61,269 nucleotides of DNA from NCBI RefSeq assembly GCF_000373925.1, contig NZ_KB892770.1, positions 1 through 61,269 of the forward strand, in the 5' to 3' direction. Each line of letters starts with the position of its first letter. Position 1 is the stretch's first letter. Of this stretch, positions 47,443-61,269 are shown piece after piece. Source of the stretch: Actinopolymorpha alba DSM 45243 (lineage in GTDB: Bacteria; Actinomycetota; Actinomycetes; Propionibacteriales; Actinopolymorphaceae). Below the pieces are notes generated by a model. That model made no database searches and was not told where the DNA came from. It saw only the letters and a program-made list of their open reading frames with translations. A program made the translations under genes and the position numbers.

Positions 47443-48408
47443 TCACCAGGAGTCGAGGCGTACGCCAACTCCTTCGGCGTTCGCCCGGCCGACGACGTGA
47501 TGGGCGGCGGTGAGGTCCAGCAGCGCCATTCCCTGCGACTCGAACAACGTGATCTGCTCGTCGCTCGTACGCCCGGTCGCCTTGCCCACCAGGATGGTGC
47601 CGAGGTCAACCACTCCTGACCAGTCGTCGAGGCCTGCGATCAGGTCGCCGCTCTCCGTCCGGGCGACGTCGATGCTGTCCACCGCGACCACGTCGGCGGC
47701 CAGGACCGCGGCCGCGTCGAGTTCGCGTTTGACGGCGTAGTTGGAACCAACGGCGTTGACGTGCGTGCCGGGTCGCAGCCAGGACCCGTCGAAGACGGGA
47801 TCGCTCGCACCGGTCGCGGTGATCACCACGTCGGCCAGCCGGACCGCGGACTCGGCATCACTTGGCGCCACGTCGAGGCCGGTCTCACCGGCCAGCTCCG
47901 TACAGAAAGCCGCGAGGCGTTCGGGTGACCGGCCCACCACGCGGACGCGTTCGAGTGACGGAAGCGCGCGCACCGTGGCGAGGAGTTGGCCGCGCGCCAC
48001 CCAACCCGCCCCGAACACCGCGAGGGTACGACTGTCTGGACGGGCCAGCACCCGCGTGGCGACCGCGGTCGCGGCGGCGGTGCGGAGGTTGCCGAGTACG
48101 TTGGCCCGCAGTAGCGCGGTGAGCTGGCCGGTCGTCACATCGAAGAGCTGGAACGTGAACGCCGCGCCCTGGGTGACGTCGGTGCGGACGACGGGATAGG
48201 TCTTGACCCCCATCACGCCGAGCGTCGGCGCGATCGCCCCCATCAGGTTGAGCGTCGCGCCGGCGCGGATCACCCGCTGGCGGACGGCGTTCTCGGCGGC
48301 TCCGGTGCCGAGCAGCCGGAACGCCTCCTCGCTGGTGACCAGCGCGTCGTCGAGGCTGAACAACCGCTCGACCTCGGCCTCTGTGAGGAGCAGGACCAAC
48401 GGGGTCAC
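47443..48408 (-). CDS. ornithine cyclodeaminase/mu-crystallin family protein
   Basis: A 321-residue NAD(P)-dependent protein. GVMGVKTYPVV near the substrate site, LLRANVLGNLRTAAATAVAT and the Rossmann motif LAVFGAGWVARGQL are typical. Members include ornithine cyclodeaminase, alanine dehydrogenase and ketimine reductases. As the last gene of the amide-catabolic cluster it may reduce or deaminate an amino-acid or imine product. GTG 48408 overlaps the IclR stop by 4 nt. Confidence 0.85.
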   Translation of the reverse strand: MTPLVLLLTEAEVERLFSLDDALVTSEEAFRLLGTGAAENAVRQRVIRAGATLNLMGAIAPTLGVMGVKTYPVVRTDVTQGAAFTFQLFDVTTGQLTALLRANVLGNLRTAAATAVATRVLARPDSRTLAVFGAGWVARGQLLATVRALPSLERVRVVGRSPERLAAFCTELAGETGLDVAPSDAESAVRLADVVITATGASDPVFDGSWLRPGTHVNAVGSNYAVKRELDAAAVLAADVVAVDSIDVARTESGDLIAGLDDWSGVVDLGTILVGKATGRTSDEQITLFESQGMALLDLTAAHHVVGRANAEGVGVRLDSW

Positions 48409-49280
48409 CTCTCTGTGGTGGCGGGATCGGCGTCGGTGGCGGCCCGGCGTACCGACCGCTGCGTGATCAGCTGGCCGGAGGTGGGGCGCGGGTGGCCGGC
48501 GCCGCCGTCGGGGAACGCCGTGGCGCGTTGGCTCATCTCCAGGACCCGGCCGACCCGAGCGGCGGCGGCCATGACTGACTCGGCGAGCGCGGGAATCCGG
48601 TCCTGCGTGAGGCGGTAGGTGGGACCGCCGATCCAGATCGCGTACGGAACGCTGTTGCCGACGTGGACCGGCGCGGCGACCGCGGCGGCCCCCTCCTCCA
48701 ACTCGTTGTAGGCCACGGAGTACCCACGCTCGCGGATGGTGGCGAGTTCGGCGAGGAACGCATCGAAGTCGGCGAACTTCTCCGACGGGTTGTCCTGGAA
48801 GTCCTCGGCGAACTCCTTGCGGATGTTCTCGGTGTCCTGCCAGGCGAGCAGGGCCTTTCCGGTGGAGGTACGCCAGGCCGGCAGCATCCGTGGCACGGGA
48901 CTCAGCCCGTGGCTGATGAGGAAGGGACCCTGAACCTGCGCCACCACCATCACCGACGGCGGCACCAGCTGGTCGAGCCCGGCGGTTTCCTGAGCCTCGT
49001 CCGCGAGATCACGCAGGACACTCTGAGCGTGGCCGTACGCCGACTCCTGGTCGAGCAGCCCACCCAGCAGGAAGAGCAGGCCGAGGGAGACGCGGAACCT
49101 CCGGCTGTCGGGGTCGGCCGTCAGCCAGCCCTCCCGCTCGAGGATTCCGAGGATGCGGTGGCAGGTCGCCTTGGGGATGCCGGACGCGCGCGCCACATCG
49201 GACAGGCCGATACCTTCCGGATGTGCCGCGACCGCGCGCAGGATCCAGATGGTCTTCTGCACAAGTCCGATGTCACTCAT
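48405..49280 (-). CDS. IclR-family transcriptional regulator
   Basis: A 291-residue IclR protein: LVQKTIWILRAVAAHPEGIG and SGIPKATCHRILGILEREGW form the winged helix; RTSTGKALLAWQDTENI and GYSVAYNELEEGAAAVAAPV the effector domain. ATG 49280 lies 8 nt after agggagaaa. It is within the catabolic cluster, probably sensing its substrate or product, in addition to the divergent GntR. Confidence 0.88.
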   Translation of the reverse strand: MSDIGLVQKTIWILRAVAAHPEGIGLSDVARASGIPKATCHRILGILEREGWLTADPDSRRFRVSLGLLFLLGGLLDQESAYGHAQSVLRDLADEAQETAGLDQLVPPSVMVVAQVQGPFLISHGLSPVPRMLPAWRTSTGKALLAWQDTENIRKEFAEDFQDNPSEKFADFDAFLAELATIRERGYSVAYNELEEGAAAVAAPVHVGNSVPYAIWIGGPTYRLTQDRIPALAESVMAAAARVGRVLEMSQRATAFPDGGAGHPRPTSGQLITQRSVRRAATDADPATTER

Positions 49281-49334
49281 CGCAGTTTCTCCCTGAACAC
49301 GCCAGTCCATCCAGCGTTCGGTAGACGGGTCATG

Positions 49335-50201
49335 CTAGGACGTCGTCCCGCTTCGTGTCCGGGCGGTTTCGATCAGGTGCTGATAAATCCGCGAGATCGA
49401 CCGGCGCTGCAGGCTCTCGACGATGTCGTCGGGGTAGCCGGCGTACGCCGGGGTGGTCACGTGGATCCGGTCCTCGAACCTGATGGTGTCGGCGGCCTCC
49501 GCCTCGGAGACGCCCGCGTCCAGCGCTGCGCGAACCTGGCCGACGAGCGCGTAAGCCTTCTGGTCGAAGGCCGTCACCACGTCCTTGCCGCACACCTCGC
49601 CGTGGCCAGGAACGAGTACGTCGAAGTCCAGCTCGGCGATCCGGCGCAGGCTCGCCAGCCATTCGTCGACGAACGCCTCCTGGAACGACGGCAGGCTCGC
49701 CTCGCACACGTTGTCGCCGCTGAAGAAGATGCGTTGCTCGGGCAGCAGGATCCCGATCGTGTTGGGTGTGTGGCCGCTGAGCCGGATGAGCCGCAGGTGT
49801 ACGTCGCCGACGTAGAGGTCCAGCTCGTCCGAGAAGGTGATGTCGGGAAACCGGAGATGGTGACCCTCCATCAGCGGAAGGCCATCCGGGTCGATGAGGG
49901 CGATGAGGTCGCGGACGTACGCCGGGTCCGGGAAGTCGTGTTGCATCCCCGCGCGGGTTCGTTCGTGCGCGACGACGGTGCCCGGGAGGAAGTAGCCACC
50001 CATGGTGTGGTCGATGTGGTGGTCGGTGTGAATGAGGTACTTCGTCGGGCCGAGTTCGTCGACCGCCTTACGCCAGGCGACAGCGTCGGTCGGCTTGTGG
50101 GGTGCGTCGATGAGCACATTGCCCTCGGACGTGGTGATCACGGCATTGTTGGAGCCGAGATTTCCGAGCTCGACGTAGATGTTGTCGGCGATCTGTTGCA
50201 T
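49335..50201 (-). CDS. metallo-beta-lactamase-fold hydrolase with variant metal motif
   Basis: A 288-residue MBL-fold protein. The family motif HxHxDH appears as D60-H-H62-I-D64-H65 (YLIHTDHHIDH), so the first ligand is Asp rather than His. Other ligands are present: LSGHTPNT, FSGDN and VPGHGE. Quinoprotein- and hydrolase-like subgroups show such variants. Possible role: hydrolysing an ester, thioester or lactam intermediate of the pathway. 13 bp upstream of the next gene's stop, same operon. Confidence 0.85.
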   Translation of the reverse strand: MQQIADNIYVELGNLGSNNAVITTSEGNVLIDAPHKPTDAVAWRKAVDELGPTKYLIHTDHHIDHTMGGYFLPGTVVAHERTRAGMQHDFPDPAYVRDLIALIDPDGLPLMEGHHLRFPDITFSDELDLYVGDVHLRLIRLSGHTPNTIGILLPEQRIFFSGDNVCEASLPSFQEAFVDEWLASLRRIAELDFDVLVPGHGEVCGKDVVTAFDQKAYALVGQVRAALDAGVSEAEAADTIRFEDRIHVTTPAYAGYPDDIVESLQRRSISRIYQHLIETARTRSGTTS

Positions 50202-50213
50202 GGCGAGGACCTC

Positions 50214-51575
50214 TCAGGCACGGGTCGGCGCAGTGGAATGGGTGGGAACGGCGCCGGAGGCCGCCGTGGATGTCGAAGAGTCGTCGAGATAGGTCGGCAA
50301 CCGTTGAGCGAGGAACGAAGATCCGAAGCTCACCAGGCACAGGACCGTCATGTACACCGCGATCGGCCAGGTGCTGCCGGCCCAGGCGTACAACGCGGTT
50401 CCGATGAACGGCGCCGTCCCTCCGACGATCGCGGTCGGCAGGGCGTAGCTCACCGAGGCGCCCGTGTAACGCACCTCCGCGGGGAAGAGCGCTGCGAAGA
50501 ACGCCGGCTGTGGGGTGTAGACGGCGCCGTTGACGACCACCACCAGGATGGCGACCGCCGCCAGGATGAGGAGAGTGTTTCCGGTGTTGACGATCGTGAA
50601 GAAGGGGAACGCGAAGAGCGCACCGAAGCCGGCCACCGTCATCATGACCCGGCGCGGCCCCACCCGGTCGGCGAGCATGGCCATGAACGGAATCGCGATG
50701 ACGTAGATCGCCGCCACGATGAGGTTGACCGTCAAGATGGTGTTGCGCGACTTCCCGAGCTCACTTGTGACGTACGACAAGGTGAAGATCGAGCCCGTCC
50801 AGTACGCGATGTTGTTGCAGCAGCTGATGCCGAACACCACACCGACGGTCTTTGGGTAGCGGCGGACGACGGTCGCGAGTGGCACCTTCGGCTTGGCATC
50901 CTTGTGGTCGATCCTGGCGAACTCCGGCGACTCCGGCAGCGTCATCCGGAGCACCAGTCCGAAGATCAGCAGCAGGGCGCTGGCGAGGAACGGCACCCGC
51001 CATCCCCAGGTGGCGAAGCTGTCGCCGGTGGTCACCGCCATCGTGGTGACGAACGCCGTCGAGAGGAGTTGTCCGGCGGGCGAACCCATCTGGGTGGCGC
51101 TTCCGTACAACGCACGCCGGTGTGCGGGCGCGTGTTCGACCGACATCAACGCGGCGCCACCCCATTCGCCGCCGAGGCCGAGCCCCTGGATAAAACGCAG
51201 CACCGTCAGCAGGATCGGTGCCCACACGCCGATGGTCTGATAGCTCGGCAGGAGTCCGATGACGAACGTCGTGCCGCCCATCAGGACCAGCGTGACGACC
51301 AGCGTTTTCTGGCGCCCGAACCGATCACCGAAGTGGCCGAAGATGATGCTGCCGAGGGGACGCGCGGCAAATCCGACCGCCAGCGTGGCGAACGACGCCA
51401 GCGTGCCGGCGAGGTGGCTGAACTCCGGAAAGAACAGCTTGTCGAAGACCAGCGCGGCCACCGTGCCGTAGACCAGGAAGTCGTACCACTCCAGCGTGGT
51501 GCCGACGAGACTGGCAAGGGCCAGCCGCACCGGCGAAACCCGGGTGCCTCCGGCAGGGTTCTCGGCGTTCGTCAT
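50214..51575 (-). CDS. MFS transporter, metabolite:H+ symporter (MHS) type
   Basis: A 453-residue 12-TM transporter. LASLVGTTLEWYDFLVYGTV near the start is the MHS (shikimate/citrate/proline-betaine) hallmark, and GHFGDRFGRQKTLV is the MFS loop 2-3 motif; VLRFIQGLGLGGEWGGAALM is also MHS-like. It should import an organic acid or amide substrate of the surrounding enzymes. ATG 51575 follows ggaggaa. Confidence 0.9.
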   Translation of the reverse strand: MTNAENPAGGTRVSPVRLALASLVGTTLEWYDFLVYGTVAALVFDKLFFPEFSHLAGTLASFATLAVGFAARPLGSIIFGHFGDRFGRQKTLVVTLVLMGGTTFVIGLLPSYQTIGVWAPILLTVLRFIQGLGLGGEWGGAALMSVEHAPAHRRALYGSATQMGSPAGQLLSTAFVTTMAVTTGDSFATWGWRVPFLASALLLIFGLVLRMTLPESPEFARIDHKDAKPKVPLATVVRRYPKTVGVVFGISCCNNIAYWTGSIFTLSYVTSELGKSRNTILTVNLIVAAIYVIAIPFMAMLADRVGPRRVMMTVAGFGALFAFPFFTIVNTGNTLLILAAVAILVVVVNGAVYTPQPAFFAALFPAEVRYTGASVSYALPTAIVGGTAPFIGTALYAWAGSTWPIAVYMTVLCLVSFGSSFLAQRLPTYLDDSSTSTAASGAVPTHSTAPTRA

Positions 51576-51594
51576 GGGCCGTTCCTCCAGACGA

Positions 51595-52407
51595 TCAGCG
51601 GTAGAGCTCGGGCCGGCGGTCGCGGAGGAACGGACGTTCCATGGCGCGCTTACGGGCGAGCAGGCCGGGATCGATGTCGGCCTGGACGAGTTCGTCATCG
51701 CCGCTGTCCGTGCTCACCGCGAGCACCTCGCCGTCGGGCCCGTAGATCGCACTGCCCCCGAAGTACTCCTTGGGTCCTTCGGAGCCGATCCGGTTGGCGG
51801 ACATGACGTACATGCAGTTGAAGACCGCGTGTGCGCGCAGCTCGATCTCGAAGATGGACCTGGAGTAGGCCGTCGCCGATGCGATGGGTACGCACAACAG
51901 GCTGGCGCCCTCCAGAGCGACCCGGCGGGCCATCTCCGGGAAGTGCCGTTCGTAGCAGATGATCGTGCCGATCTTCGTCTCTCCGGTGTCGACGGCCGAG
52001 GGTGGCTCCTCGCCGGCCCGGAAGTAGAACTTCTCCGGAAAGGCGTTGGAGAACGGCAGGTGTGACTTGCGGTACGTCGACGTCAAGACGCCATTGACGA
52101 AGGTGCAGGCGGTGTTGTGGTAGACGCCCGGAGTCGCGGTGGCCTCGAAGAGGGACGACACGATGGTGATGCCGTGCTCGCGGGACTTCGCCGCGACCAG
52201 GGCGTTGCTCGGCCCGTCCAGCGGCTCGGCGTAGGAGAAGAACTCCGGATCGCCCGGCACCCCTTGAACGAAGGGCACCGCGAACAACTCGGGCAGCAGG
52301 ACCACCTTGACGCCGGCCGCGGCCGCCTCGTCGAGCTTGGCACCCACCCGCTTCAGGTTGTCCTCGCGGCTCTCGGTGGGGTGGTACTGCAGGGCGGCGA
52401 CGCGCAT
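51595..52407 (-). CDS. nitrilase-superfamily carbon-nitrogen hydrolase (beta-ureidopropionase-like)
   Basis: A 270-residue amidase. The catalytic triad is E40 (LLPELFA), K114 (YRKSHLPF) and C151 (TIICYERHFPE). Relatives hydrolyse N-carbamoyl amino acids, including beta-ureidopropionate. Next to a dihydropyrimidinase-type enzyme this is the expected second step, releasing ammonia, CO2 and an amino acid. ATG 52407 follows ggagaggagag. Confidence 0.88.
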   Translation of the reverse strand: MRVAALQYHPTESREDNLKRVGAKLDEAAAAGVKVVLLPELFAVPFVQGVPGDPEFFSYAEPLDGPSNALVAAKSREHGITIVSSLFEATATPGVYHNTACTFVNGVLTSTYRKSHLPFSNAFPEKFYFRAGEEPPSAVDTGETKIGTIICYERHFPEMARRVALEGASLLCVPIASATAYSRSIFEIELRAHAVFNCMYVMSANRIGSEGPKEYFGGSAIYGPDGEVLAVSTDSGDDELVQADIDPGLLARKRAMERPFLRDRRPELYR

Positions 52408-52447
52408 GTCTCTCCTCTCCTTGCCAGCGGTCATCAGGTCAGGCCGG

Positions 52448-53455
52448 TCAGGCCGCGAAGGTCTTGGCCAGTGCCTGGACCGTTTCGATCTTGCGGCCCA
52501 GCGGGTTGAGGACCGGCACCCGGATTCCGGCCGCGTGGAAGGCCTCGATCGTCTCGGCCGCCTGGCTGGTGGTGCCGCAGGCGCTGACCCGGCGTACGAG
52601 CTCGTCGGAGACGAGTGGCATGGCCCGCTTGACGTCATCGGGGGCAGCCGGCCAGCCGGCGATCTCCTGGATACGTTGGACGAGTTCGGGTTCGACGCCG
52701 CAGTGCTTGGCGATGTGCGGCTGCTGCATGAGATAGAGCGTCAGGAACGCCTTGCAGTGGTTGAGCGCCTCCTGCGGGTCGGAGTCGTCGACGCTGCAGG
52801 CGATGATCTGCGTGAGGTCGAAGTCGTCCTTGGGTTCGGCGCGTTTCGCCAGCCCGCGCTGGATGGCGGGGATGGCCTCGTCCAGGTAGGAGATCGGCAA
52901 CAGGAAGTCCATGTAGACGCCGTCCGCGACCTCGCCGGACAGCTCCAGCATCTTCATGCCCACCGGGCCGGTGTAAACCGGAACCGGAACCGGCTTGTTC
53001 TCGGCGTACATCCGGTCGAAGCGCACGCCGTCCATCTGGACGAACTCGCCGTCGAAGGTGACCACCTCGTTGCGGAAGAACGTCTTGAGGACGGTGATGT
53101 ACTCACGCATGTGCTTCAGCGGCTTGTGCAGCGGCAGGCCGACCTTGCTCGCCAGCGGTTCCCACCACGCGCCGATGCCGAGGATGATGCGGCCGGGTGC
53201 GAACTCGTCCAGGGTCTTGAACGTCGCCGCCATGAGCGCGGCGTTGCGGGTCTTGTTGTTGACGACCCCGGAGCCGATCCGGATCCGTTGGGTCCGGCTG
53301 GCCAGCAGGGTCATGAGAGTGATCGCGTCGCGGGTGATCCGTCCTTCGGCAACCCACAAGGAGTCCAATCCGGCTTCGTCGGCGAGGTCAGCGACCGCCC
53401 AGGTTTCGTCAAGCGTGAAGCGTTCGCCGAGATGAACGCCGAGAGGAATGCGCAT
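52448..53455 (-). CDS. LLM-class oxidoreductase, F420-type
   Basis: A 335-residue luciferase-like TIM barrel. IRIGSGVVNNKTRNAALMAA, FKTLDEFAPGRIILGIGAWW and the MREYITVLKTFF helix follow the Mer-like F420 subfamily rather than FMN-dependent luciferases. In pyrimidine degradation a flavin LLM enzyme (RutA) opens the ring; an F420 enzyme here could instead reduce or oxidise the ring. ATG 53455 follows aggagg. Cofactor is inferred from motif likeness only. Confidence 0.85.
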   Translation of the reverse strand: MRIPLGVHLGERFTLDETWAVADLADEAGLDSLWVAEGRITRDAITLMTLLASRTQRIRIGSGVVNNKTRNAALMAATFKTLDEFAPGRIILGIGAWWEPLASKVGLPLHKPLKHMREYITVLKTFFRNEVVTFDGEFVQMDGVRFDRMYAENKPVPVPVYTGPVGMKMLELSGEVADGVYMDFLLPISYLDEAIPAIQRGLAKRAEPKDDFDLTQIIACSVDDSDPQEALNHCKAFLTLYLMQQPHIAKHCGVEPELVQRIQEIAGWPAAPDDVKRAMPLVSDELVRRVSACGTTSQAAETIEAFHAAGIRVPVLNPLGRKIETVQALAKTFAA

Positions 53456-53487
53456 CGGTCCTCCTGTGGAGCAAAGTCTGTGATCGG

Positions 53488-54903
53488 TTACCGGGAGGTG
53501 TCAGAGGTGGCGCGGGCCAGATAGCGGCCGCGTCCAGCGGGGGCATGGAGTTCTCCGTCAGAGACGACGATGTCGCCACGGGAGAGGACATGCCGGGGAC
53601 GTCCGGACACCCGCATGCCTTCGTAGAGGTTGTAGTCGGCCCGGGTGTGGTGCCCCGCGGCGGTGATGGTGTGGTCGGCGGCCGGATCCCAGACGAGGAC
53701 GTCCGCGTCGGATCCGGGTGTCAAGGTTCCCTTGCGGGGATAGAGACCGAACAGCTTGGCCGGTCGGGTCGCGACCAGATCCACGAACCGGTGGACGTCG
53801 AACCGTCCGCCCACCACGCCGGCCTCCCAGATCACCATGAGGCGGTCCTCCACACCGGGAACGCCGTTGGGAATCTTGGGGAAATAGCCACGTCCCTGTG
53901 GTTTCTGCGGTGGCAGGTCGTCGGGCTGGCTCAACGTGAACGCCGCGTGGTCGGTGCCGAGCGTGGAAATGACGCCGGTCTGAAGCGCGTGCCAGAGGTC
54001 TTCCTGGTTGGCGCGTTCACGGATGGGCGGGGAGCAGACGTACGCCGCCGCCTCGAACCCCAGTCCGGCGTAGTCCTCGTAGCTGGTGAGCAGATACTGC
54101 GGGCAGGTCTCACCGAAGACCGCGAAGTCGCGGGCTTGGTGGCGGGCGATCTCCTCGGCCGCCAACCGGGACGAGACATGGACCACGAAGAGGGGGCTGC
54201 CGACCGACTCGGCGATGGTGACCGCCCGGTGGACCGCCTCGCGTTCGGCCACGTGCGAATGTGCCGCGTGGTGCTGGTGTTCGGCGGTCTGGTTGTCAGA
54301 CAGGAGCCGTTGGGTGGCGTCCGCGACCAGAGTGCCGTTCTCCGCGTGCACCATCGGAAGGACACCTTCCTCGGCGCACCGGCGAAAGCCCTGGATCAGC
54401 ACCCGATCATCGACCATCGTCCCCGGATAGGACATGAAGAACTTCCAGCTCGTGGCACCTTCGCGGGCGAGTCGAGCCAGCTCGTCGAACGTCGCGTCAC
54501 CGGCGGTCGGCGGCACGATCGGGTGGAAGCCGAAGTCAACCACGCATTGCGCCTCGGCCGACTCCAGGCGGCGTTGGAACGCGTCGTACATGCCCTGGTC
54601 GGGTCGGGCGCGGACGAAGTCCACGATGGTGGTCGTCCCGCCGAAGGCCGCGGAGACGGTGCCGGAGTGGAAGTCGTCCGCTGTCCTGGTGAGGCCGTTG
54701 GCGCTCATGTGTTCCAGGTGCGTGTGGGTGTCGACGCCGCCGGGCATCACTAAGCAGCCGGCGGCGTCGACGATTGTGTCCGCGTCCCATTGCGCTCCAT
54801 CGCCGAGGGCGGTGATGCGTTCACCCTCGATGAGAACGTCGGCGCGGAAGCGGTCGGTGGGGGTGACCACCTCACCGCCTCGGATCAGCGTTCGCTTCGG
54901 CAT
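53488..54903 (-). CDS. dihydropyrimidinase/hydantoinase-family cyclic amidohydrolase
   Basis: A 471-residue binuclear-zinc amidohydrolase. H60 and H62 (DTHTH), carboxylated-lysine K154 (TSWKFFMSYPG), H186 (VHAENG), H242 (VVHVSS) and D318 (GTDHAAF) form the complete metal site. The family opens the ring of dihydropyrimidines, hydantoins and related imides to N-carbamoyl amino acids. Position between the LLM enzyme and the aminotransferase supports a cyclic ureide substrate. ATG 54903 follows gagggaa. Confidence 0.92.
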   Translation of the reverse strand: MPKRTLIRGGEVVTPTDRFRADVLIEGERITALGDGAQWDADTIVDAAGCLVMPGGVDTHTHLEHMSANGLTRTADDFHSGTVSAAFGGTTTIVDFVRARPDQGMYDAFQRRLESAEAQCVVDFGFHPIVPPTAGDATFDELARLAREGATSWKFFMSYPGTMVDDRVLIQGFRRCAEEGVLPMVHAENGTLVADATQRLLSDNQTAEHQHHAAHSHVAEREAVHRAVTIAESVGSPLFVVHVSSRLAAEEIARHQARDFAVFGETCPQYLLTSYEDYAGLGFEAAAYVCSPPIRERANQEDLWHALQTGVISTLGTDHAAFTLSQPDDLPPQKPQGRGYFPKIPNGVPGVEDRLMVIWEAGVVGGRFDVHRFVDLVATRPAKLFGLYPRKGTLTPGSDADVLVWDPAADHTITAAGHHTRADYNLYEGMRVSGRPRHVLSRGDIVVSDGELHAPAGRGRYLARATSDTSR

Positions 54904-54915
54904 CGCGTCGTTCCC

Positions 54916-56256
54916 TCAGACCTGCTGATCCGCGAGGGTGAGTGCCTCGTCGAGCACTCCGATTCCCTCGTCGATCTCGGCCTCGGTGATGATCAGCGGC
55001 GGTGCGAGCCGGATCACGTTGTTGAAAGCGCCGAAGTGAACGCCCTTGTCCTTGGCGGCCTTGATCACCTGGCTGATCGGCGCGGCCTCCGAACCCTTGG
55101 CGTTGAACGGCGCGAGGGGCTCCTTCGTCTCCCGGTCACGGACCAGTTCGATGCCCCACATCAGGCCGAGGCCACGGATGTCGCCGATGCTCGGGTGGCG
55201 GTCGGCGAGCTCGCGCAGCCGGCGTTCGAGCAGGATCCCTTGCGTGGCGGCGTTCTCGACGATCTTCTCGTCCTTCATGATCTCGATCGACGCGACGCCG
55301 CTGGCGCAGGCGAGGGGATGCCCGCTGTAGGTCAGGCCGCCGGAGAACGTGTGTTCCCGAAGCCAGTCACGGATCGGCTCGGAGACGATCATCGCGCCCA
55401 GCGGGACATAACCAGAGTTGAGTCCCTTGGCGACGCTGATGATGTCGGGCACGACATCCCAGTGCTCGCAGCCGAACCAGCTGCCGAGCCGGCCGAATCC
55501 GACCATGACCTCGTCGAGGATGAGCAGGATTCCGTACTTGTCGCAGACCTCGCGGATCGAACGGAGATACCCGTCCGGCGGGACGATCGGTCCGTTGGTG
55601 CCGGTCACCGTTTCCAGGACGACCGCCGCCACCGTTTCCGGATTCTCGTACTGAAGGATCTCCTCCAGGTGCGGGCCTCCCGAGCAGACCGGGCACGGAT
55701 CCGGGTGGCCCGCGGGGCAGCGGTAGGTGTACGGATCCAGCATCCGCACCACGCCAGGCATGCCGGGTTCGGCCGGCCAGCGCCGGGGTTCGCCCGAGAG
55801 CGTGATCGCTCCGGCGGTGGCACCGTGGTACGACCGGTAGCGGGTGATGATCTTGTGCCGTCCGGTGTAATGGCGGGCGAGCTTGATGGCGTTCTCGTTG
55901 GCGGCGGCACCGCCGGTGGTGAAGAACGACGCGGTGAGGTTGCCGGGCGCGAGTTCGGCCAACTGCAAGGCGAGCTTGCTCCGCGCCTCGTTGGCAAGGT
56001 TGGGCCCGATGTAACAGAGTTCGTCGGCCTGCCGCTTGATCGCCTCGACCAGTCTGGGGTGCTGGTAGCCGAGATTGAGGTTCACCAGCTGGGACATGAA
56101 GTCGAGGTGCCGGCGGCCGGAGGAGTCGACGAAGTAGCAGCCTTCGCCGCCGACCACGACCAGCGGGTCGGGTCCGGACTGCTTCGACCAGGACGTGAGA
56201 ACGTGCTCGCGTTGGGCTTTCGCCACCCAGGCAAGGGATTCCGGATCCGCGGTCAT
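54916..56256 (-). CDS. class III (omega-amino acid:pyruvate) aminotransferase
   Basis: A 446-residue PLP enzyme. The PLP lysine is K277 (SVAKGLNSGY) and D248 is in ILLILDEVMVGFGR; the HTFSGGLTYSGHPLACAS loop is typical. A CPAGHPDPCPVC insert (C180, C188, C191) is present as in taurine/beta-alanine:pyruvate transaminases. It should convert the amino acid released by the amidase into a semialdehyde. It overlaps the DUF1185 gene by 4 nt (ATGA). Confidence 0.9.
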   Translation of the reverse strand: MTADPESLAWVAKAQREHVLTSWSKQSGPDPLVVVGGEGCYFVDSSGRRHLDFMSQLVNLNLGYQHPRLVEAIKRQADELCYIGPNLANEARSKLALQLAELAPGNLTASFFTTGGAAANENAIKLARHYTGRHKIITRYRSYHGATAGAITLSGEPRRWPAEPGMPGVVRMLDPYTYRCPAGHPDPCPVCSGGPHLEEILQYENPETVAAVVLETVTGTNGPIVPPDGYLRSIREVCDKYGILLILDEVMVGFGRLGSWFGCEHWDVVPDIISVAKGLNSGYVPLGAMIVSEPIRDWLREHTFSGGLTYSGHPLACASGVASIEIMKDEKIVENAATQGILLERRLRELADRHPSIGDIRGLGLMWGIELVRDRETKEPLAPFNAKGSEAAPISQVIKAAKDKGVHFGAFNNVIRLAPPLIITEAEIDEGIGVLDEALTLADQQV

Positions 56257-56822
56257 GAGGAGACCTCCGCGCCGAAGGTCGCGAGCCGGGCGAGCGGGCG
56301 CCCTCCGTTCGCGGCGGCGGCAAGGACGAGGATCTCCCGGGGAAGTGGAGCGTCCTCGATCCGGAACGTCACGGTCTGATGGTGAGACCGGGTCTTGGCG
56401 TCCAGCTTGTGTTTGAGGGGTACGTCGATCGGGGCGCCGGGCAGGCCGACCTTCTCGGCGGCGGGCAGGAGTTCGGTGCCCTGGGCCGCGTCCCGGAAGA
56501 CGTTGCCGAACCGCAGGTTGTGGATCAGGGCCGAGCCGTGTTCGAGTTCGCCGTCGATGCCGACGAGCGCGGCCTTGCCGAACGCCTCGACCGTCGTACC
56601 GTCGCCGCCCAGGAGGTCGACGCAGGCGGGTCCGACGAGGGCGCCGAGTTCAGCGCCGACCTCGTTCGCGATGGTGACGACATCGTCGACGTAGGTCGCC
56701 GGGAACGGGTTGGTGATCACGACGCCGACAATGGCGATCCGGTGCGGACCTGGGACTGGTTGACCGTTCTCCCGCCTCGTCTCCACGAGTTGGTGGACGA
56801 CCTTGCGCACATCGAGCGACAC
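56253..56822 (-). CDS. DUF1185 (amino acid synthesis family) protein
   Basis: A 189-residue protein of Pfam PF06684, whose solved members have a chorismate-mutase-like fold and no proven activity. IAIVGVVITNPFPATYVDDV and VGPACVDLLGGDGTTVEAFG are the conserved segments; the C-terminal LKHKLDAKTRSHHQTVTFRI follows. GTG 56822 is chosen for aggaagg 9 nt before it; an ATG 24 nt upstream is weaker. First gene of the nine-gene cluster, divergent from the GntR gene. Confidence 0.82.
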   Translation of the reverse strand: MSLDVRKVVHQLVETRRENGQPVPGPHRIAIVGVVITNPFPATYVDDVVTIANEVGAELGALVGPACVDLLGGDGTTVEAFGKAALVGIDGELEHGSALIHNLRFGNVFRDAAQGTELLPAAEKVGLPGAPIDVPLKHKLDAKTRSHHQTVTFRIEDAPLPREILVLAAAANGGRPLARLATFGAEVSS

Positions 56823-56953
56823 GGCTGAACCGCCTTCCTGGTTCATTCAGTAGGCCGATGGTCCAGTGACCATACCGGGGGAGTGTTGCACTGGTGTTTC
56901 GCTGAGTCGACCCCTGGCCCACTCATTGACCCAAAAAAGTCACACGCGGCCTC

Positions 56954-57007
56954 TTGCCGTCCGGCCGGGGACACTCCTACCTTGATTCGTCATACGAATC
57001 CCGTATG
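56954..57007 (+). promoter_or_regulatory. GntR promoter and operator-like dyad
   Basis: catacg-aatcc-cgtatg (56991-57007) is a perfect 6-5-6 dyad 70 bp before the GntR gene. ttgccg (56954) and tacctt 18 bp later could be its promoter. The dyad lies between divergent units and is the natural candidate for GntR control of both. Confidence 0.6.
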
Positions 57008-57077
57008 CGGACCGAGGGCCGATCCCTCGGGAGATGGGCCCGACCTCTGCCCGGAGGCCGGGAGCAACGGAGTCCGG

Positions 57078-57866
57078 ATGTCCCTGACCGAGCTCGTGGT
57101 CGCGGAACTCGAGCGGCGGATCGTCGACGGCACCTACGCCATCGACGAGAAGCTGCCGACCGAGCCCGAGCTCGCCAAGGAGTTCTCGACCAGCCGTACC
57201 ACCATCCGGTCGGCGGTCGGAAACCTCGAGGCCAGGGGCCTGGTCAGCCGCGAACAAGGACGTGGCACCTTCGTCCGCGGCACTGGCCGGGTCGACATCA
57301 ACATCCTTCTCGAAGCCAATCTCTCCGTCACGACCGTGATCCGGTCCGCGGGGATGGAGCCGGGGACAACCGACCTGTCCGTCAGCACGGTCATCGCACC
57401 CGACGCGGTGGCGTCCGCCCTGCGGCTCCCACCTCGTGCGCGCGTGATCGTCATCGACCGCACCAGAACGGCGGACGGTACGCCGGTCGCGCACAGTGCG
57501 GACTACCTCGTGAAAGCCCCGGGCCTCACCGGTGCGAGGACGCAGTACCAAACCTCGGTGTACGAACTCCTCGAACGTGTTTATCGCGAACCCGTTGCCA
57601 GCGGGTTGGCCCGGATCGAACCCGGCCAGGCGTTCGGGCAGTTGGCCACACAGCTCGAACTCGCAGAAGGCGCGTTGTTGTTGGTGCTCAGCCAGGTGCA
57701 CGAGCTGACCGACGGCACACCCGTCATGTATTCCGTCGTGTCGCTGCGCAGCGACGCACTCCATCTGTACGTCCATCGCGGGCCGGCCCTCAGCGACCTC
57801 CGCGACCTTCCCGCCACGCACCTTCCGTCCACGGGGGACAAGAACCCGCTGCGCTCGGTCACCTGA
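57078..57866 (+). CDS. GntR-family (HutC/UTRA type) regulator
   Basis: A 262-residue regulator. Winged helix: LTELVVAELERRIVDGTYAI, TEPELAKEFSTSRTTIRSAV, GLVSREQGRGTFVRG. The UTRA effector domain includes LRLPPRARVIVIDRTRTADG and DGTPVMYSVVSLRSDALHLY. HutC-type proteins sense small metabolites and repress catabolic and uptake genes. It precedes the ECF importer and diverges from the amide-catabolic cluster, so it likely links both. ATG 57078. Confidence 0.88.
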   Translation: MSLTELVVAELERRIVDGTYAIDEKLPTEPELAKEFSTSRTTIRSAVGNLEARGLVSREQGRGTFVRGTGRVDINILLEANLSVTTVIRSAGMEPGTTDLSVSTVIAPDAVASALRLPPRARVIVIDRTRTADGTPVAHSADYLVKAPGLTGARTQYQTSVYELLERVYREPVASGLARIEPGQAFGQLATQLELAEGALLLVLSQVHELTDGTPVMYSVVSLRSDALHLYVHRGPALSDLRDLPATHLPSTGDKNPLRSVT

Positions 57867-57881
57867 TCGCGACAGGTGCCT

Positions 57882-57962
57882 GAACCCACACAGCGGGGGT
57901 GGGCCCTACGGGCGAAGCCCGTGGGGGCCGGAACCACACCGTGGGGGCGGATCCCACACAGC
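57882..57962 (+). promoter_or_regulatory. structured leader before the ECF importer, with imperfect direct repeat
   Basis: The stretch from gaacccacacagcggggg (57882) recurs imperfectly at 57930 (gaaccacaccgtgggggc), and cccacacagc ends both halves. Between them acgggc-gaa-gcccgt (57908-57922), extended by gggcc pairs, forms a stable hairpin. It could terminate gntR or act as an RNA leader. It does not match the TPP or cobalamin riboswitch cores I know. Confidence 0.45.
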
Positions 57963-57996
57963 AACGACTCACTCCCTTGTCCCTGGAGGTCCCATC

Positions 57997-58692
57997 ATGG
58001 TTTCCCAACCAGTTGCCAGGTCGTCCCGCCCGGCGGGCGGAGCCGTCCTCCCGATGACGTACGTCATCACGCTCGTCCCCGTCTGTGCGGCCCTCAACAT
58101 CGTCGGGTCCTACATTCACAAGGCGCTCAACCTGCCCGTCTACCTCGACATGATCGGCACCGCGATCGCGGCGATGGTGCTGGGACCGTGGTGGGGTGCG
58201 CTTGTCGGCGTCATCACCAACACCGGCTCGGCTTTCCTTTCTGGGCCGCAACTCCTGCCGTTCGCGCTCGTCAACATCACCGGCGCGTTGCTGTGGGGTT
58301 ATGGCGTACGCGCATGGAAGCTGGGCTCGTCGTTCCCGAGGTTCTTCCTTCTCAACCTGATCGTTGCGCTCGCCTGCACCCTGGTGGCCGCGCCGATCAT
58401 CGTGCTGGTCTTCGGTGGCGCGACCGGTGTCGCCTCTGACGCGCTCACCGCGTCGTTCGTCGCCATGGGCAACCAGTTGTTCGTCGCGGTCTTCTCCAGC
58501 AACATCCTTACCTCCCTGGCTGACAAGATCATCGGCGGCTTCCTCGCCCTCGCCGTCATCGAGGCACTTCCACCCACCCTCACCTCGCGCGTCAACCTGA
58601 TGAAGGCGACGGGCATGCGGTCGGTGTTGTACGCCGCCGGTGGCGTGGTCATCGGCGTCGCGTTCGTCATCTTCTTCCTCCTCGTCAAGTAA
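57997..58692 (+). CDS. ECF transporter substrate-binding (S) component
   Basis: A 231-residue integral membrane protein with six predicted helices. The VPVCAALNIVGSYIHKALNL, LDMIGTAIAAMVLGPWWGAL and VGVITNTGSAFL segments (small-residue AxxxA-type helix 1 and GPWWGALVG) are S-component features. It binds a vitamin-like or small organic ligand with high affinity and docks on EcfT. The ligand cannot be named; it is not clearly ThiT, BioY or CbiM-like. ATG follows ggagg. Confidence 0.85.
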   Translation: MVSQPVARSSRPAGGAVLPMTYVITLVPVCAALNIVGSYIHKALNLPVYLDMIGTAIAAMVLGPWWGALVGVITNTGSAFLSGPQLLPFALVNITGALLWGYGVRAWKLGSSFPRFFLLNLIVALACTLVAAPIIVLVFGGATGVASDALTASFVAMGNQLFVAVFSSNILTSLADKIIGGFLALAVIEALPPTLTSRVNLMKATGMRSVLYAAGGVVIGVAFVIFFLLVK

Positions 58693-58704
58693 GGCTGGAC
58701 GCGC

Positions 58705-59568
58705 ATGAGTGACCCGATCATCGCCTTCGAAGACGTCTCCTTCACCTATGCGGGAAGTGAAACGCCCGCGCTGTCGAACATCGATCTCGCGATCTCCGAG
58801 GGTGAGTACGTCGCGATTCTCGGACTCAACGGCGCTGGCAAGACGACGCTTGGCCTGTGTGTCAACGGAGTCGTCCCGCACATGTTGGGAGGCGAACTCA
58901 CCGGCGAGGTTCGGGTCGCGGGGTTGAACGTCGCCGACTACGCCGTCCGGGAAATGGCGAAGGTCGTCGGAATCGTCTTCGACAATCCGGAATTCCAGAT
59001 GAGTCAGCTGACCGTGGCCGAGGAGGTCGCGCTCGGCATGGAGAACACCGGAGTGTCCTACGCCGAGATGCGGCGGGTGATTCCTGAGGTGTTGGCGCAG
59101 GTCGGCCTGGCCGGATTCGAGGAACGTACGCCGCTGGGCCTTTCTGGCGGCCAGCAGCAGCGGCTGGCGATCGCGGCGGTCCTGGCGATGAAACCACGGG
59201 TGCTCGTGCTCGACGAGCCGACCTCGAACCTCGACCCGGTGGGGAAGCAGGACGTGTTCGAGATCGCCGAACGCCTCAACCGCGAGCAGGGCATGACGGT
59301 CATCATCGCCGAACACGAGGTCGAGGTGGTGGCGCGGTACGCCGACCGGATCGTCGTTCTCGACCAGGGGAGGGTGGTCCTCAACGGGCCACCGAAGGAC
59401 GTGCTGTCGCAGGTGGAACGCCTGACGGAACTCCACCTGCGACCTCCCCAGGCGACCCGGATCGCCGAGCTTCTGCGGGACGAGCATCACCTGTGGGACG
59501 GGCCGCTTCCGGTGCTCGCCGAGGACGCCGCGACCGGAATCGAAGCCATCCTGGGGAGGAGCGCATGA
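58705..59568 (+). CDS. ECF transporter ATPase, EcfA1
   Basis: A 287-residue ABC ATPase. Walker A GLNGAGKTTL (about 40-49), Q-loop FDNPEFQMSQ, signature LSGGQQQR, Walker B VLVLDEPTSNLD, H-switch AEHEVE. It energises uptake by the S/T complex together with EcfA2. It ends in an ATGA that also starts a 27-codon mini-cistron. Confidence 0.92.
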   Translation: MSDPIIAFEDVSFTYAGSETPALSNIDLAISEGEYVAILGLNGAGKTTLGLCVNGVVPHMLGGELTGEVRVAGLNVADYAVREMAKVVGIVFDNPEFQMSQLTVAEEVALGMENTGVSYAEMRRVIPEVLAQVGLAGFEERTPLGLSGGQQQRLAIAAVLAMKPRVLVLDEPTSNLDPVGKQDVFEIAERLNREQGMTVIIAEHEVEVVARYADRIVVLDQGRVVLNGPPKDVLSQVERLTELHLRPPQATRIAELLRDEHHLWDGPLPVLAEDAATGIEAILGRSA

Positions 59569-59722
59569 GCGATCGCAGCGAGCGAATCATCCAACACAGC
59601 GTGCATGGTGCCTCATGCGCGCCCGGAGCGGAGCGAGGACGGGCATGAGCGAGCGCAGCGAGCGAATCATCCAACACAGCGTGCATGGTGCCTCATGCGC
59701 GCCCGGAGCGGAGCGAGGACGG
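59563..59722 (+). repeat. two tandem 80-bp units between ecfA1 and ecfA2
   Basis: Units 59563-59642 and 59643-59722 are identical except for gatcgc versus gagcgc near 59572; the next 7 bases begin a third copy. Each runs from gcatgagc to a purine-rich gcgaggac just before the next ATG, so each carries a start codon at one end and a ribosome-binding site at the other. Confidence 0.97.
59565..59648 (+). CDS. 27-residue mini-cistron 1
   Basis: Its ATG overlaps the ecfA1 TGA (ATGA), its TGA overlaps the next ATG in the same way. The peptide starts MSDRSERIIQHSVHGASCAP. Probably translated through coupling rather than for its product, but it has an intact start and stop. Similar MSERSER-type short frames arise from an actinobacterial dispersed repeat. 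Confidence 0.4.
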   Translation: MSDRSERIIQHSVHGASCAPGAERGRA

Positions 59723-59728
59723 GCATGA
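59645..59728 (+). CDS. 27-residue mini-cistron 2
   Basis: Second copy of the unit; differs from the first in one residue (E for D at position 3). It begins inside the stop of mini-cistron 1 and ends inside the ATG of ecfA2, completing an unbroken chain of ATGA overlaps. Confidence 0.4.
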   Translation: MSERSERIIQHSVHGASCAPGAERGRA

Positions 59729-60672
59729 GTAGTCCCGCCACGACGTCCGTGCCTGAGGCGACTGACCCGTCGCCCGATGAGGTGCCCGCGATCCTCGTCG
59801 ACGGCGCGTCGTACGTCTATCCGACTGGTGACGTGGTGGCGCTTCGCGAGGTGACCCTGCGCATCGGCCATGGGGAGATCGTCGGTCTGGTTGGGCAGAA
59901 CGGCTCGGGCAAGACCACCTTGACAAAGCTCTTCAACGGCCTGCTCAAGCCGACCGGCGGCCGCGTGGTCGTCAACGGCATCGAGACTCGCAACGAAAGC
60001 GTGCAGGAGTTGGCGCGGCACGTGGGGTATGTCTTCCAGAATCCCAATCACCAGCTCTTCGCCCGGACCGTCCAGGAGGAGTTGGAGTTCGGGCCGCGCA
60101 ACCTTGGGTTGACGGACGACGAGATCGCCGAGCGGGTGGCAGACGCGGTGGAGTTCTTCGATCTGTCAGGTGAGCTCGGCACCCACCCGTACCGGCTCAG
60201 CTTCCCGCTCCGCAAGCTGGTGGGGATCGCGTCCATCTACGCGATGCGTCCGCCCGTGCTGGTGCTGGACGAGCCGTCCACCGGTCAGGACCACCGGACG
60301 ACGGGCGTGATCAACACCCTGCTCCGTCGACTCGCCGAGCTCGGAACGACGGTGGTGTGCGTGTCCCATGACATGCCGCTGCTGGCGGACGTCGTCGAAC
60401 GCGTCGTCGTCATGCGGGACGCGCAGGTCATCGCCGACGCGAGCCCGCGGGCGGTCTTCGCCGACGAGGACCTGATGAAGCGAACCAACCTGCACGCTCC
60501 GCAGGCCACCCAGATCGGACTCAGGACGGTGGCGCGGGACGGCGGCGTGGTGCCGCTCACCCCTGACGAGGTGGCCTCGGCGGTGGCCGAACGCCGGGGT
60601 GGGGGTGGGCCCGGACGGGCGACACCCGACCGGGGCCGGAACCCCACTGCCACGCCGTCAACGTCCGGCTGA
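59725..60672 (+). CDS. ECF transporter ATPase, EcfA2, with atypical signature motif
   Basis: A 315-residue ABC ATPase. Walker A GLVGQNGSGKTTL (about 55), Q-loop FQNPNHQLF, Walker B VLVLDEPSTGQD, H-switch VSHDM. The ABC signature LSGGQ is replaced by LSFPLRK (YRLSFPLRKLVGIAS), so one of the two ATP sites of the A1/A2 dimer is probably degenerate. ATG 59725 is coupled to mini-cistron 2; an in-frame ATG at 59695 is an alternative. A Pro/Arg/Gly-rich tail follows the domain. Confidence 0.88.
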   Translation: MSSPATTSVPEATDPSPDEVPAILVDGASYVYPTGDVVALREVTLRIGHGEIVGLVGQNGSGKTTLTKLFNGLLKPTGGRVVVNGIETRNESVQELARHVGYVFQNPNHQLFARTVQEELEFGPRNLGLTDDEIAERVADAVEFFDLSGELGTHPYRLSFPLRKLVGIASIYAMRPPVLVLDEPSTGQDHRTTGVINTLLRRLAELGTTVVCVSHDMPLLADVVERVVVMRDAQVIADASPRAVFADEDLMKRTNLHAPQATQIGLRTVARDGGVVPLTPDEVASAVAERRGGGGPGRATPDRGRNPTATPSTSG

Positions 60673-60703
60673 CACGTACGACCTTTCCGCTCGAGGAGGA
60701 GCC

Positions 60704-61269
60704 ATGTCCACAACGGCGCTGCCGTTCTCGATGATCCCGGGGGACTCGTTCCTGCATCGCCTCAATCCCCTGGCCAAGATCGTCTGGATCGTCGGGTATC
60801 TAGTGATCGCGTTCTCGACTCGCAATCCGTTCCTGCTGTACGGCATGGCGGTATTCGCGTTCCTACTGGTGATCGGGTCGGGCCTGCTACGGCGGGTGGG
60901 CAAGGCGTTGTTCGTCCTGCTCCCGATCGGATCGTCGCTGATCTTCCTCCAGGCGGTCACGCCGCCCACGTCCGCGTTCGGGCTCGAGGTGATCGGATCG
61001 CTTGGTCCGTTCACGATCTACCAGGGTGGTATCTACAACGGCCTGGTGTTGCTGGGGCGGGTGGTCAGCGTCCTGATCGTCTCGCTGGCCATCGTGATGA
61101 CGACGCACCCGAGCGATCTCTTCACGTCGCTGGCGCGGCTGCGGGTGCCGTACACATTCAACTTCATGGTCGCGATGACGCTCCAGCTGATTCCGGTCCT
61201 CCAGCGGGAGTTCGGGATCATCCTCAGCGCGCAGAAGTCCCGCGCGATGCGGGCCCGCGGTTTTGGTGC
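60704..61269 (+). CDS. ECF transporter transmembrane component EcfT (3' end outside window)
   Basis: 188 codons are visible. PGDSFLHRLNPLAKIVWIVG is the EcfT N-terminal signature; four to five helices follow; the first coupling-helix motif SAQKSRAMRARGFG, with the A-R-G triad that binds the ATPases, is right at the window end. ATG 60704 lies behind gaggagga. It completes the S-A1-A2-T importer. Confidence 0.9.
   Translation, partial: MSTTALPFSMIPGDSFLHRLNPLAKIVWIVGYLVIAFSTRNPFLLYGMAVFAFLLVIGSGLLRRVGKALFVLLPIGSSLIFLQAVTPPTSAFGLEVIGSLGPFTIYQGGIYNGLVLLGRVVSVLIVSLAIVMTTHPSDLFTSLARLRVPYTFNFMVAMTLQLIPVLQREFGIILSAQKSRAMRARGFG

Follow-up and report, generated by a model that had tools for sequence, protein, structure and literature searches.

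A 61,269 bp stretch of the genome of Actinopolymorpha alba DSM 45243 (contig NZ_KB892770.1; C64:1–61269; hereafter the window) contains a nine-gene minus-strand operon with a core of five genes. These encode a DUF1185 protein, a class III aminotransferase, a dihydropyrimidinase-family protein, an oxidoreductase of the luciferase-like monooxygenase (LLM) superfamily and a nitrilase-superfamily amidase. The core probably specifies reductive breakdown of uracil and/or thymine, with an F420H2-dependent LLM reductase resembling methylenetetrahydromethanopterin reductase (Mer) in place of PydA/PreTA, as judged from gene context, sequence relatives and a modelled fold; F420-dependent pyrimidine reduction fits the data better than any rival that we formed. 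Uracil and thymine are not distinguishable from these data. The known enzymes for reduction of the uracil or thymine ring are iron-sulphur flavoenzymes (PydA/dihydropyrimidine dehydrogenase). If the reading is true, a small, soluble, iron-sulphur-free F420 enzyme would be a clear non-homologous replacement of PydA, and F420 would gain a role in pyrimidine catabolism.

Peptide patterns of the LLM protein were searched against the GTDB species genomes, and the best 80 of 131 relatives were kept. Among these, 27 loci encode LLMs that are 62–66% identical to that of the window, and the next relatives reach at most 46%. Genes in the 27 loci were called with a codon-model pass that gives approximate starts (the window coordinates were not taken from this pass), and orthologues were counted at ≥45% identity; many loci end at contig edges, and the per-locus counts are lower bounds. 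Nitrilase and aminotransferase orthologues are present at 26 loci each, DUF1185 at 24, dihydropyrimidinase at 22 and the IclR regulator at 17, all on the same strand as the LLM. The prevailing order is DUF1185–aminotransferase–dihydropyrimidinase–LLM–nitrilase, the exceptions being one rearranged locus (L019) and four Nocardioides loci. The nitrilase orthologue is missing only in L038, where the contig stops after the LLM, and the contig of L025 begins at the LLM and lacks the aminotransferase, DUF1185 and dihydropyrimidinase orthologues. DUF1185 is also missing from L037 (which has a 36% match elsewhere) and L038, and dihydropyrimidinase from L020, L029, L030 and L082.

None of the 27 loci has an orthologue at this identity of the metabolite:H+ symporter (MHS), metallo-beta-lactamase (MBL) fold, ornithine cyclodeaminase (OCD) family, GntR, ecfS or ecfT genes of the window. 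An MHS-type relative with 34% identity occurs in L026, and matches to ecfA1 and ecfA2 are no better than 35% and apparently represent other ABC ATPases. The conserved unit is the five-gene core plus IclR, and the MHS, MBL and OCD genes are local additions. The first-pass annotation had taken all nine genes for a catabolic island and expected DUF1185, LLM, hydantoinase, nitrilase and the S component of an energy-coupling factor (ECF) importer to occur together in other genomes; the core with IclR stands and the first four are indeed kept together, whereas the three local additions and the S component are not part of the conserved set. The operon is accessory, rare and patchily distributed: the LLM is found at E≤1e-60 in none of five other genomes of the genus and at E≤1e-90 in two of 296 genomes sampled from the class. 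DUF1185, which is highly conserved within the operon loci, is matched at E≤1e-25 in 12 class-sample genomes, and exceeds 60% identity only in the two that also bear the LLM. One of these two, G138, carries an LLM identical to that of L014 on a contig of equal length, and for this reason is not counted as an additional locus.

Several lines of evidence point to an F420-type LLM. Its best NCBIfam models are those of F420-dependent Mer (162.9 of 276 and 152.5 of 348.7 bits), and at E≤1e-12 its only PDB sequence relatives are Mer. An AlphaFold model built from 36 sequences (pLDDT 91.8) retrieves F420 enzymes in its 24 best PDB rows, with the first non-F420 row at rank 25, and matches F420-bound Mer (1z69) with a template modelling (TM) score of 0.87 at 28% identity. 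Mer is the closest solved fold; the window LLM lies below the Mer family cut-offs. A gene for NADPH:F420 reductase (npdG) is present in the operon of 16 of the 27 loci, 15 times between the LLM and the nitrilase, and the three representatives scanned all score above the TIGR01915 cut-off. The fetched stretches of the 27 loci also include the F420 biosynthesis genes cofC (9 loci), fbiC (5) and cofE (2). One representative of each was scanned, and all three scored above the cut-off of their TIGR model or of PRK09234. The two Leucobacter loci have another cofC-like gene, of which the one copy scanned is below the cut-off (84.1 of 105 bits). The loci with cofC, fbiC or cofE are all among the 16 with npdG, and 11 loci show no F420 gene. 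The window genome encodes FbiC (1501 bits, above the cut-off of 1018); npdG was the only other F420 gene sought there. An F420-type enzyme, as first annotated, is thus supported by operon context, model fold and relatives, and the further proposal that it takes over the ring redox step of PydA is well supported by the same predictions.

The neighbouring enzymes are compatible with the remaining steps of a reductive pathway. The dihydropyrimidinase passes the TIGR02033 cut-off (Table 1) and matches 1yny at 5e-118; its best PDB relatives are named D-hydantoinase. Its active-site His, Lys, Asp, Tyr, Ser and Asn align with those of hydantoinases and dihydropyrimidinases, at what we take from the family to be metal-ligand and pocket positions. 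PDB matches of the nitrilase include N-carbamoylputrescine amidohydrolase (5h8i, 6e-29) and a protein deposited as nitrilase/beta ureidopropionase (3ivz, 4e-26). The motif CYERHFPE is found at the catalytic cysteine in all 28 rows of the nitrilase and its orthologues, and its arginine presumably resembles the carboxylate-binding arginines of beta-ureidopropionase and D-carbamoylase. A second nitrilase is present in 11 loci, and the two members inspected lack this arginine. The aminotransferase matches taurine:2-oxoglutarate aminotransferase (6jix, 8e-109) and is 49% identical to an aminotransferase of a Deinococcus PreTA operon and 44% to a haloarchaeal one; a Deinococcus AJ005 relative (52%) lies with methylmalonate-semialdehyde dehydrogenase (MMSDH) and xanthine dehydrogenase genes, with no PreA in the stretch read. 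Two MMSDH genes above the cut-off are located elsewhere in the window genome, and succinate-semialdehyde or aldehyde dehydrogenase-type genes are near the core in 12 of the 27 loci.

Transporters associated with the core in related loci link it, at the level of protein family, to operons that do encode PreT–PreA. An NMT1/THI5-type substrate-binding protein is present in 17 of the 27 loci and its ATPase in 16; an NCS1 permease is found in three, the one scanned being above its cut-off. A plasmid search with one NMT1 binding protein gave 32 records, and the contexts of eight chosen ones were read. Six have a pyrimidine-pathway context, and in three of these (Deinococcus actinosclerus, D. aquaticus and a Klebsiella quasipneumoniae plasmid) PreT–PreA and a dihydropyrimidinase lie beside the NMT1 relative. 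The others are a Thalassospira locus with dihydropyrimidinase, nitrilase, aminotransferase and MMSDH, a Sinorhizobium locus with dihydropyrimidinase, a Zn hydrolase and a RutR-like regulator, and an Azospirillum thermophilum locus with MMSDH and an aminotransferase, which is the weakest of the set. A Rhizobium CB3171 locus has a pyrimidine nucleotidase and no Pyd genes, and the A. ramasamyi locus contains nothing relevant. The D. actinosclerus and D. aquaticus loci (L127 and L128) share with the window a dihydropyrimidinase (37%), a decarbamoylase and a class III aminotransferase (49%), and share their NMT1 transporter type with loci related to that of the window. They differ in that the window has no PreT–PreA, with the LLM, accompanied or not by npdG, instead; in addition the decarbamoylase of the window is of the nitrilase rather than the M20 type, DUF1185 is added, and the operon has no MMSDH. 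The dihydropyrimidinase, aminotransferase and transporter families are thus common to both operon sets and PreTA in one is exchanged for LLM and npdG in the other, which argues for F420-dependent reduction. A haloarchaeal pattern, seen at two loci, repeats the LLM exchange with another type of decarbamoylase.

From the computed gene content, family membership, conserved order and fold, we infer the substrate, direction, F420 use and each catalytic step of the following route. The LLM would reduce uracil with F420H2 to dihydrouracil, which the dihydropyrimidinase would open to N-carbamoyl-beta-alanine, and the nitrilase would release beta-alanine, NH3 and CO2 from this. The aminotransferase would then convert beta-alanine to malonate semialdehyde, moving the nitrogen to a 2-oxo acid, and an aldehyde dehydrogenase would oxidise the semialdehyde. 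F420H2 would be regenerated by NpdG where the operon encodes it (16 of 27 loci). The first-pass annotation knew of no described pathway with this gene set. Apart from the LLM step, however, the proposed reactions are those of the known reductive pyrimidine pathway, and an F420-dependent relative of the LLM was proposed in 2025 for reductive urate breakdown (PMC12507026); what would be new is the variant with an LLM for PydA. Searches of the open-licence PMC literature for an F420-dependent pyrimidine reductase gave, besides this proposal of a yanthine reductase, two papers (PMC10117117 and PMC10172124) whose titles suggest no connection.

The place of DUF1185 in this route is less evident. Its structure search gives E≤0.001 only to chains of 3byq and 2qtp, the two known DUF1185 structures, and the idea of a monomeric relative of the ring-opening amidohydrolases (barbiturase/AtzD) was considered and dropped since nothing else was matched at that level. 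According to PMC7913881, the oxidation of a semialdehyde by TgnE is stimulated by TgnF, a DUF1185 homologue, and no effect of this kind was seen for HcdD. Given this report and the position of the gene before the aminotransferase, DUF1185 is possibly an accessory factor, perhaps at the semialdehyde or enol stage, and the proposed pathway would give it a defined setting in which to seek its function. A plasmid search with DUF1185 gave 361 records, of which four loci were read. In three (from Arthrobacter, Agrobacterium and Chimaeribacter) the DUF1185 gene is accompanied by genes for an LLM, a flavin reductase, an alpha/beta hydrolase and an aldehyde dehydrogenase, and the fourth (L113) has xanthine-dehydrogenase-like genes. 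DUF1185 proteins from other loci for heterocycles or aromatics, HcdD and TgnF among them, belong like that of the window to PF06684, and three of the four plasmid loci share with the window the association with an LLM as well as having an aldehyde dehydrogenase; their LLMs differ in coming with a flavin reductase, and the DUF1185 proteins there are about 36–53% identical to that of the window. Adjacent tandem DUF1185 pairs occur in L112, L113, G158, G315 and G338.

The lack of a dihydropyrimidine dehydrogenase and of a Rut set, as first annotated, holds for PreA and RutA. The PreA/PydA model NF006183 reaches at best 33.7 bits in the window genome against a cut-off of 335, no PydA passes this cut-off in the 26 locus genomes searched (all but L025; best sub-threshold score 145 bits), and none does so in the 296 class-sample genomes. 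RutA scores at best 86.8 bits in the window genome (cut-off 498.3), and general family scans name RutB–F for none of the nine operon genes, no one-by-one search for these having been made. The absence of PydA was dropped as evidence of replacement in view of the class base rate of 0/296.

A number of observations weigh against F420-dependent pyrimidine reduction. There is no npdG beside the window operon and none above the cut-off in the window genome (best 83 of 149.8 bits), and F420H2 would therefore need another enzyme source. The base rate of the class renders the absence of PydA uninformative, and RutA is also present in two of the 27 locus genomes. DUF1185 is left unexplained by the proposed route, the nitrilase passes no curated model cut-off in the NCBIfam scan, and the closest plasmid relative of the aminotransferase (Ruegeria, 59%) lies outside any pyrimidine locus. 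The window operon has neither an MMSDH gene nor the NMT1 transporter genes. The NMT1 identities show no preference for pyrimidine loci (binding proteins 36% to the non-pyrimidine A. ramasamyi versus 33–37% to the pyrimidine set; ATPases 55% versus 50–57%), so that the transporter context is family-level evidence. The haloarchaeal amidohydrolases score 331 and 240 bits with the dihydropyrimidinase model, which requires 393. Finally, the four Nocardioides loci have a thiamine pyrophosphate (TPP) enzyme and no dihydropyrimidinase orthologue, and the substrate may therefore vary. In these operons (L020, L029, L030 and L082) the TPP enzyme, related to acetolactate synthase, occupies the place of the dihydropyrimidinase between the aminotransferase and the LLM, and dipeptide-type permease-like genes are situated upstream.

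The same chemistry could act on another cyclic ureide, such as an unsaturated hydantoin, a methylated or hydroxylated pyrimidine or a thiamine-pyrimidine analogue, with the LLM reducing a C=C or C=N ring bond and the hydantoinase, carbamoylase and aminotransferase completing the breakdown. The broad substrate range of the hydantoinase family and the D-hydantoinase names of the best PDB relatives are in keeping with this, as is the scanned NCS1 permease, which scores allantoin permease second best. Of the four Nocardioides loci, which lack the dihydropyrimidinase orthologue, three have a divergent amidohydrolase of another cluster in the vicinity, and in the fourth a similar gene is truncated; the one scanned is best for allantoinase, under the cut-off. 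However, most of the transporter contexts read are uracil/thymine operons, and an omega-aminotransferase suits a beta-amino acid product. Hydantoins yield alpha-amino acids, whereas an omega-aminotransferase fits beta-amino acids, and we regard a different ureide as unlikely.

Readings that change the chemistry of the LLM itself are considerably less probable. An FMN-dependent monooxygenase that opens the ring oxidatively would parallel the Rut pathway, in which an LLM superfamily enzyme also starts pyrimidine breakdown, and it belongs to the same superfamily; the LLMs at other DUF1185 loci are paired with a flavin reductase. However, the window LLM scores 29.7 bits with the RutA model (cut-off 498.3), family scans find no flavin reductase among the window operon genes, 16 of 27 operons carry npdG with or without F420 biosynthesis genes, and the fold ranking favours F420 enzymes, making oxidative opening very unlikely. 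Least probable of all, to the point of being hardly credible, is that the LLM is the yanthine reductase of a reductive urate pathway. Its 39–46% identical relatives do carry ssnA and/or xdh homologues at 45 of 53 loci, but at E≤1e-12 none of the ssnA, xdh and ygeW queries is the best match to any part of the window, and the operon LLMs form a separate clade (support 98) that is set apart from the urate clade by fixed positions, e.g. G38, K68, D183 and F184.

These relationships are based on an LLM tree of 90 rows made by a quick method with SH-aLRT support only and with unresolved deep branching; one row (L111) duplicates L014. The clade of operon LLMs comprises 29 rows, four haloarchaeal rows form another (support 100), seven archaeal rows, mostly from Nitrososphaerota, group as a clade, and 46 rows from xdh/ssnA loci fall in three places. 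Two of the four haloarchaeal LLM loci encode a dihydropyrimidinase-like protein, an M20 carbamoylase, a class III aminotransferase and an MMSDH, and one of them also a cytosine permease; cut-offs are passed by the MMSDH of L118 (539 of 448 bits) and by the two M20 hydrolases. The other two (L011 and L119) show no such pyrimidine gene set.

An F420-dependent yanthine reductase of family PF00296 has been proposed, untested, for Chloroflexota urate clusters (2025; PMC12507026). It shares with the window LLM the family, the proposed F420 dependence and the proposed reductive dearomatisation of a uracil-type ring, and differs in clade, partner genes and proposed substrate. LLMs with urate-cluster-type genes (the xdh/ssnA rows among L039–L092, and L010) extend beyond Chloroflexota to Acidimicrobiia and haloarchaea (L010 and L081), and npdG, cofE and cofC homologues lie near the LLM in several Chloroflexota loci (e.g. 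L068, L075 and L086). The chances are about even that the Mer-like LLM superclade as a whole, spanning actinomycetes, Acidimicrobiia, Chloroflexota, haloarchaea and Nitrososphaerota, consists of F420-dependent reductases of uracil-type rings, acting on pyrimidines in some clades and yanthine in others. It would then constitute a second, non-homologous reductive dearomatisation parallel to PydA/YgfK/UacX, with the window operon as its bacterial pyrimidine branch. The proposed yanthine reductase would also gain substance if pyrimidine reduction by the window LLM is true, because the two enzymes would be members of a single family.

L034 encodes a further LLM, 47% identical to that of the window, in a divergent cluster of its own (L034:9125–15741) with a dihydropyrimidinase (552 bits, above the cut-off), a nitrilase, an NMT1-type binding protein and carboxymuconolactone-decarboxylase-like and MlrC-like proteins. 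It has the D183–F184, L186–P187 and V165 residues of the operon clade, of which the haloarchaeal clade has only P187.

All of the genes named in the first-pass annotation are in place in the window (Table 1), as a nine-gene minus-strand operon and a divergent gntR–ecfS–A1–A2–T unit. Families were assigned by Pfam and NCBIfam model scans, and the starts of the nitrilase, MHS, IclR, GntR, ecfA2 and ecfT genes were corrected from over-long mechanical open reading frames. Two operon junctions (DUF1185/aminotransferase and IclR/OCD) have 4-nt overlaps, and the remaining gaps are 12–54 nt. The overlapping inverted repeats between the two units (GATTCGT/ACGAATC and CATACG/CGTATG) are a candidate GntR operator.

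Table 1. Predicted genes and a candidate regulatory site of the operon and the divergent ECF unit. Scores are in bits; counts refer to orthologues at ≥45% identity in the 27 related loci.
Feature	Coordinates	Strand	Basis and remarks
OCD (ornithine cyclodeaminase/mu-crystallin family)	47443–48408	minus	PF02423; local addition, 0/27 loci
IclR regulator	48405–49280	minus	Pfam; kept with core in 17/27 loci
MBL-fold hydrolase	49335–50201	minus	PF00753; local addition, 0/27 loci
MHS-type metabolite:H+ symporter, local candidate importer	50214–51575	minus	TIGR00883, 423, slightly below cut-off 443
Nitrilase-superfamily amidase, proposed beta-ureidopropionase (PydC function)	51595–52407	minus	PF00795
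LLM oxidoreductase, proposed to reduce pyrimidines (uracil/thymine) with F420H2 in place of PydA	52448–53455	minus	PF00296
Dihydropyrimidinase family (PydB-like)	53488–54903	minus	TIGR02033, 503, cut-off 393
Class III aminotransferase, proposed beta-alanine/3-aminoisobutyrate aminotransferase	54916–56256	minus	PRK06062, 570, above cut-off 472
DUF1185/AA_synth, conserved core gene	56253–56846	minus	PF06684, 177
Two overlapping inverted repeats, candidate regulator site	56984–57007		Between divergent units; no chance control
GntR/UTRA regulator of divergent unit, probably outside core	57078–57866	plus	PF07702, PF00392; 0/27 loci
ecfS, CD3073-like ECF S component (neighbour)	57997–58692	plus	NF045596, 117.8, below cut-off 180
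ecfA1, ECF ATPase 1 (neighbour)	58705–59568	plus	Best model TIGR04520, 262.5, below cut-off 315
ecfA2, ECF ATPase 2 (neighbour)	about 59725–60672	plus	Best model TIGR04521, 225.8, below cut-off 330
ecfT, ECF T component (neighbour), partial protein running into window end	60704–61269	plus	TIGR02454, 69.5, below cut-off 111.8

The divergent ECF unit had been annotated as a dedicated importer of the same or a related compound, a role that now appears doubtful. The unit adjoins the operon, and relatives of ecfS occur in 15 plasmid records; of the two contexts read, one is near nucleoside hydrolases and the other near a 5′-nucleotidase and a TudS-related desulfidase, from which a nucleoside or base cargo is plausible. 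However, none of the 27 orthologous loci carries the S or T component, while NMT1 ABC genes are present in 16–17 and an NCS1 permease in three, and ecfS is found at E≤1e-20 in none of the five other genomes of the genus. The importer was accordingly dropped as part of the conserved unit, and since ecfS and ecfT are not conserved with the core it is adjacency that links the two. The ecfS protein resembles the CD3073 family and scores below its membership cut-off (Table 1); a literature search for CD3073 gave no match. The contexts of five ecfS relatives from the same order (groups f4/g8), in which open reading frames were called crudely, gave no hint of the cargo.

At the Nitrososphaerota locus L070 (1852–7567), the sequence suggests ECF-like and M20-peptidase-like genes on either side of the LLM, and the S component there is unrelated to the window ecfS by BLASTP. 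In one ecfS relative from the same order as the window genome (L137:7971–8987, in G051), the sequence as we read it has a helix-turn-helix-like part N-terminal to the CD3073-type membrane domain, and the protein is perhaps a membrane-bound regulator. The ecfA1/ecfA2 junction (59556–59729) contains an 80-bp tandem duplication with 2.2 copies and a 96% match; because ATGAG is present in each 80-bp unit, the start of ecfA2 may have been duplicated.

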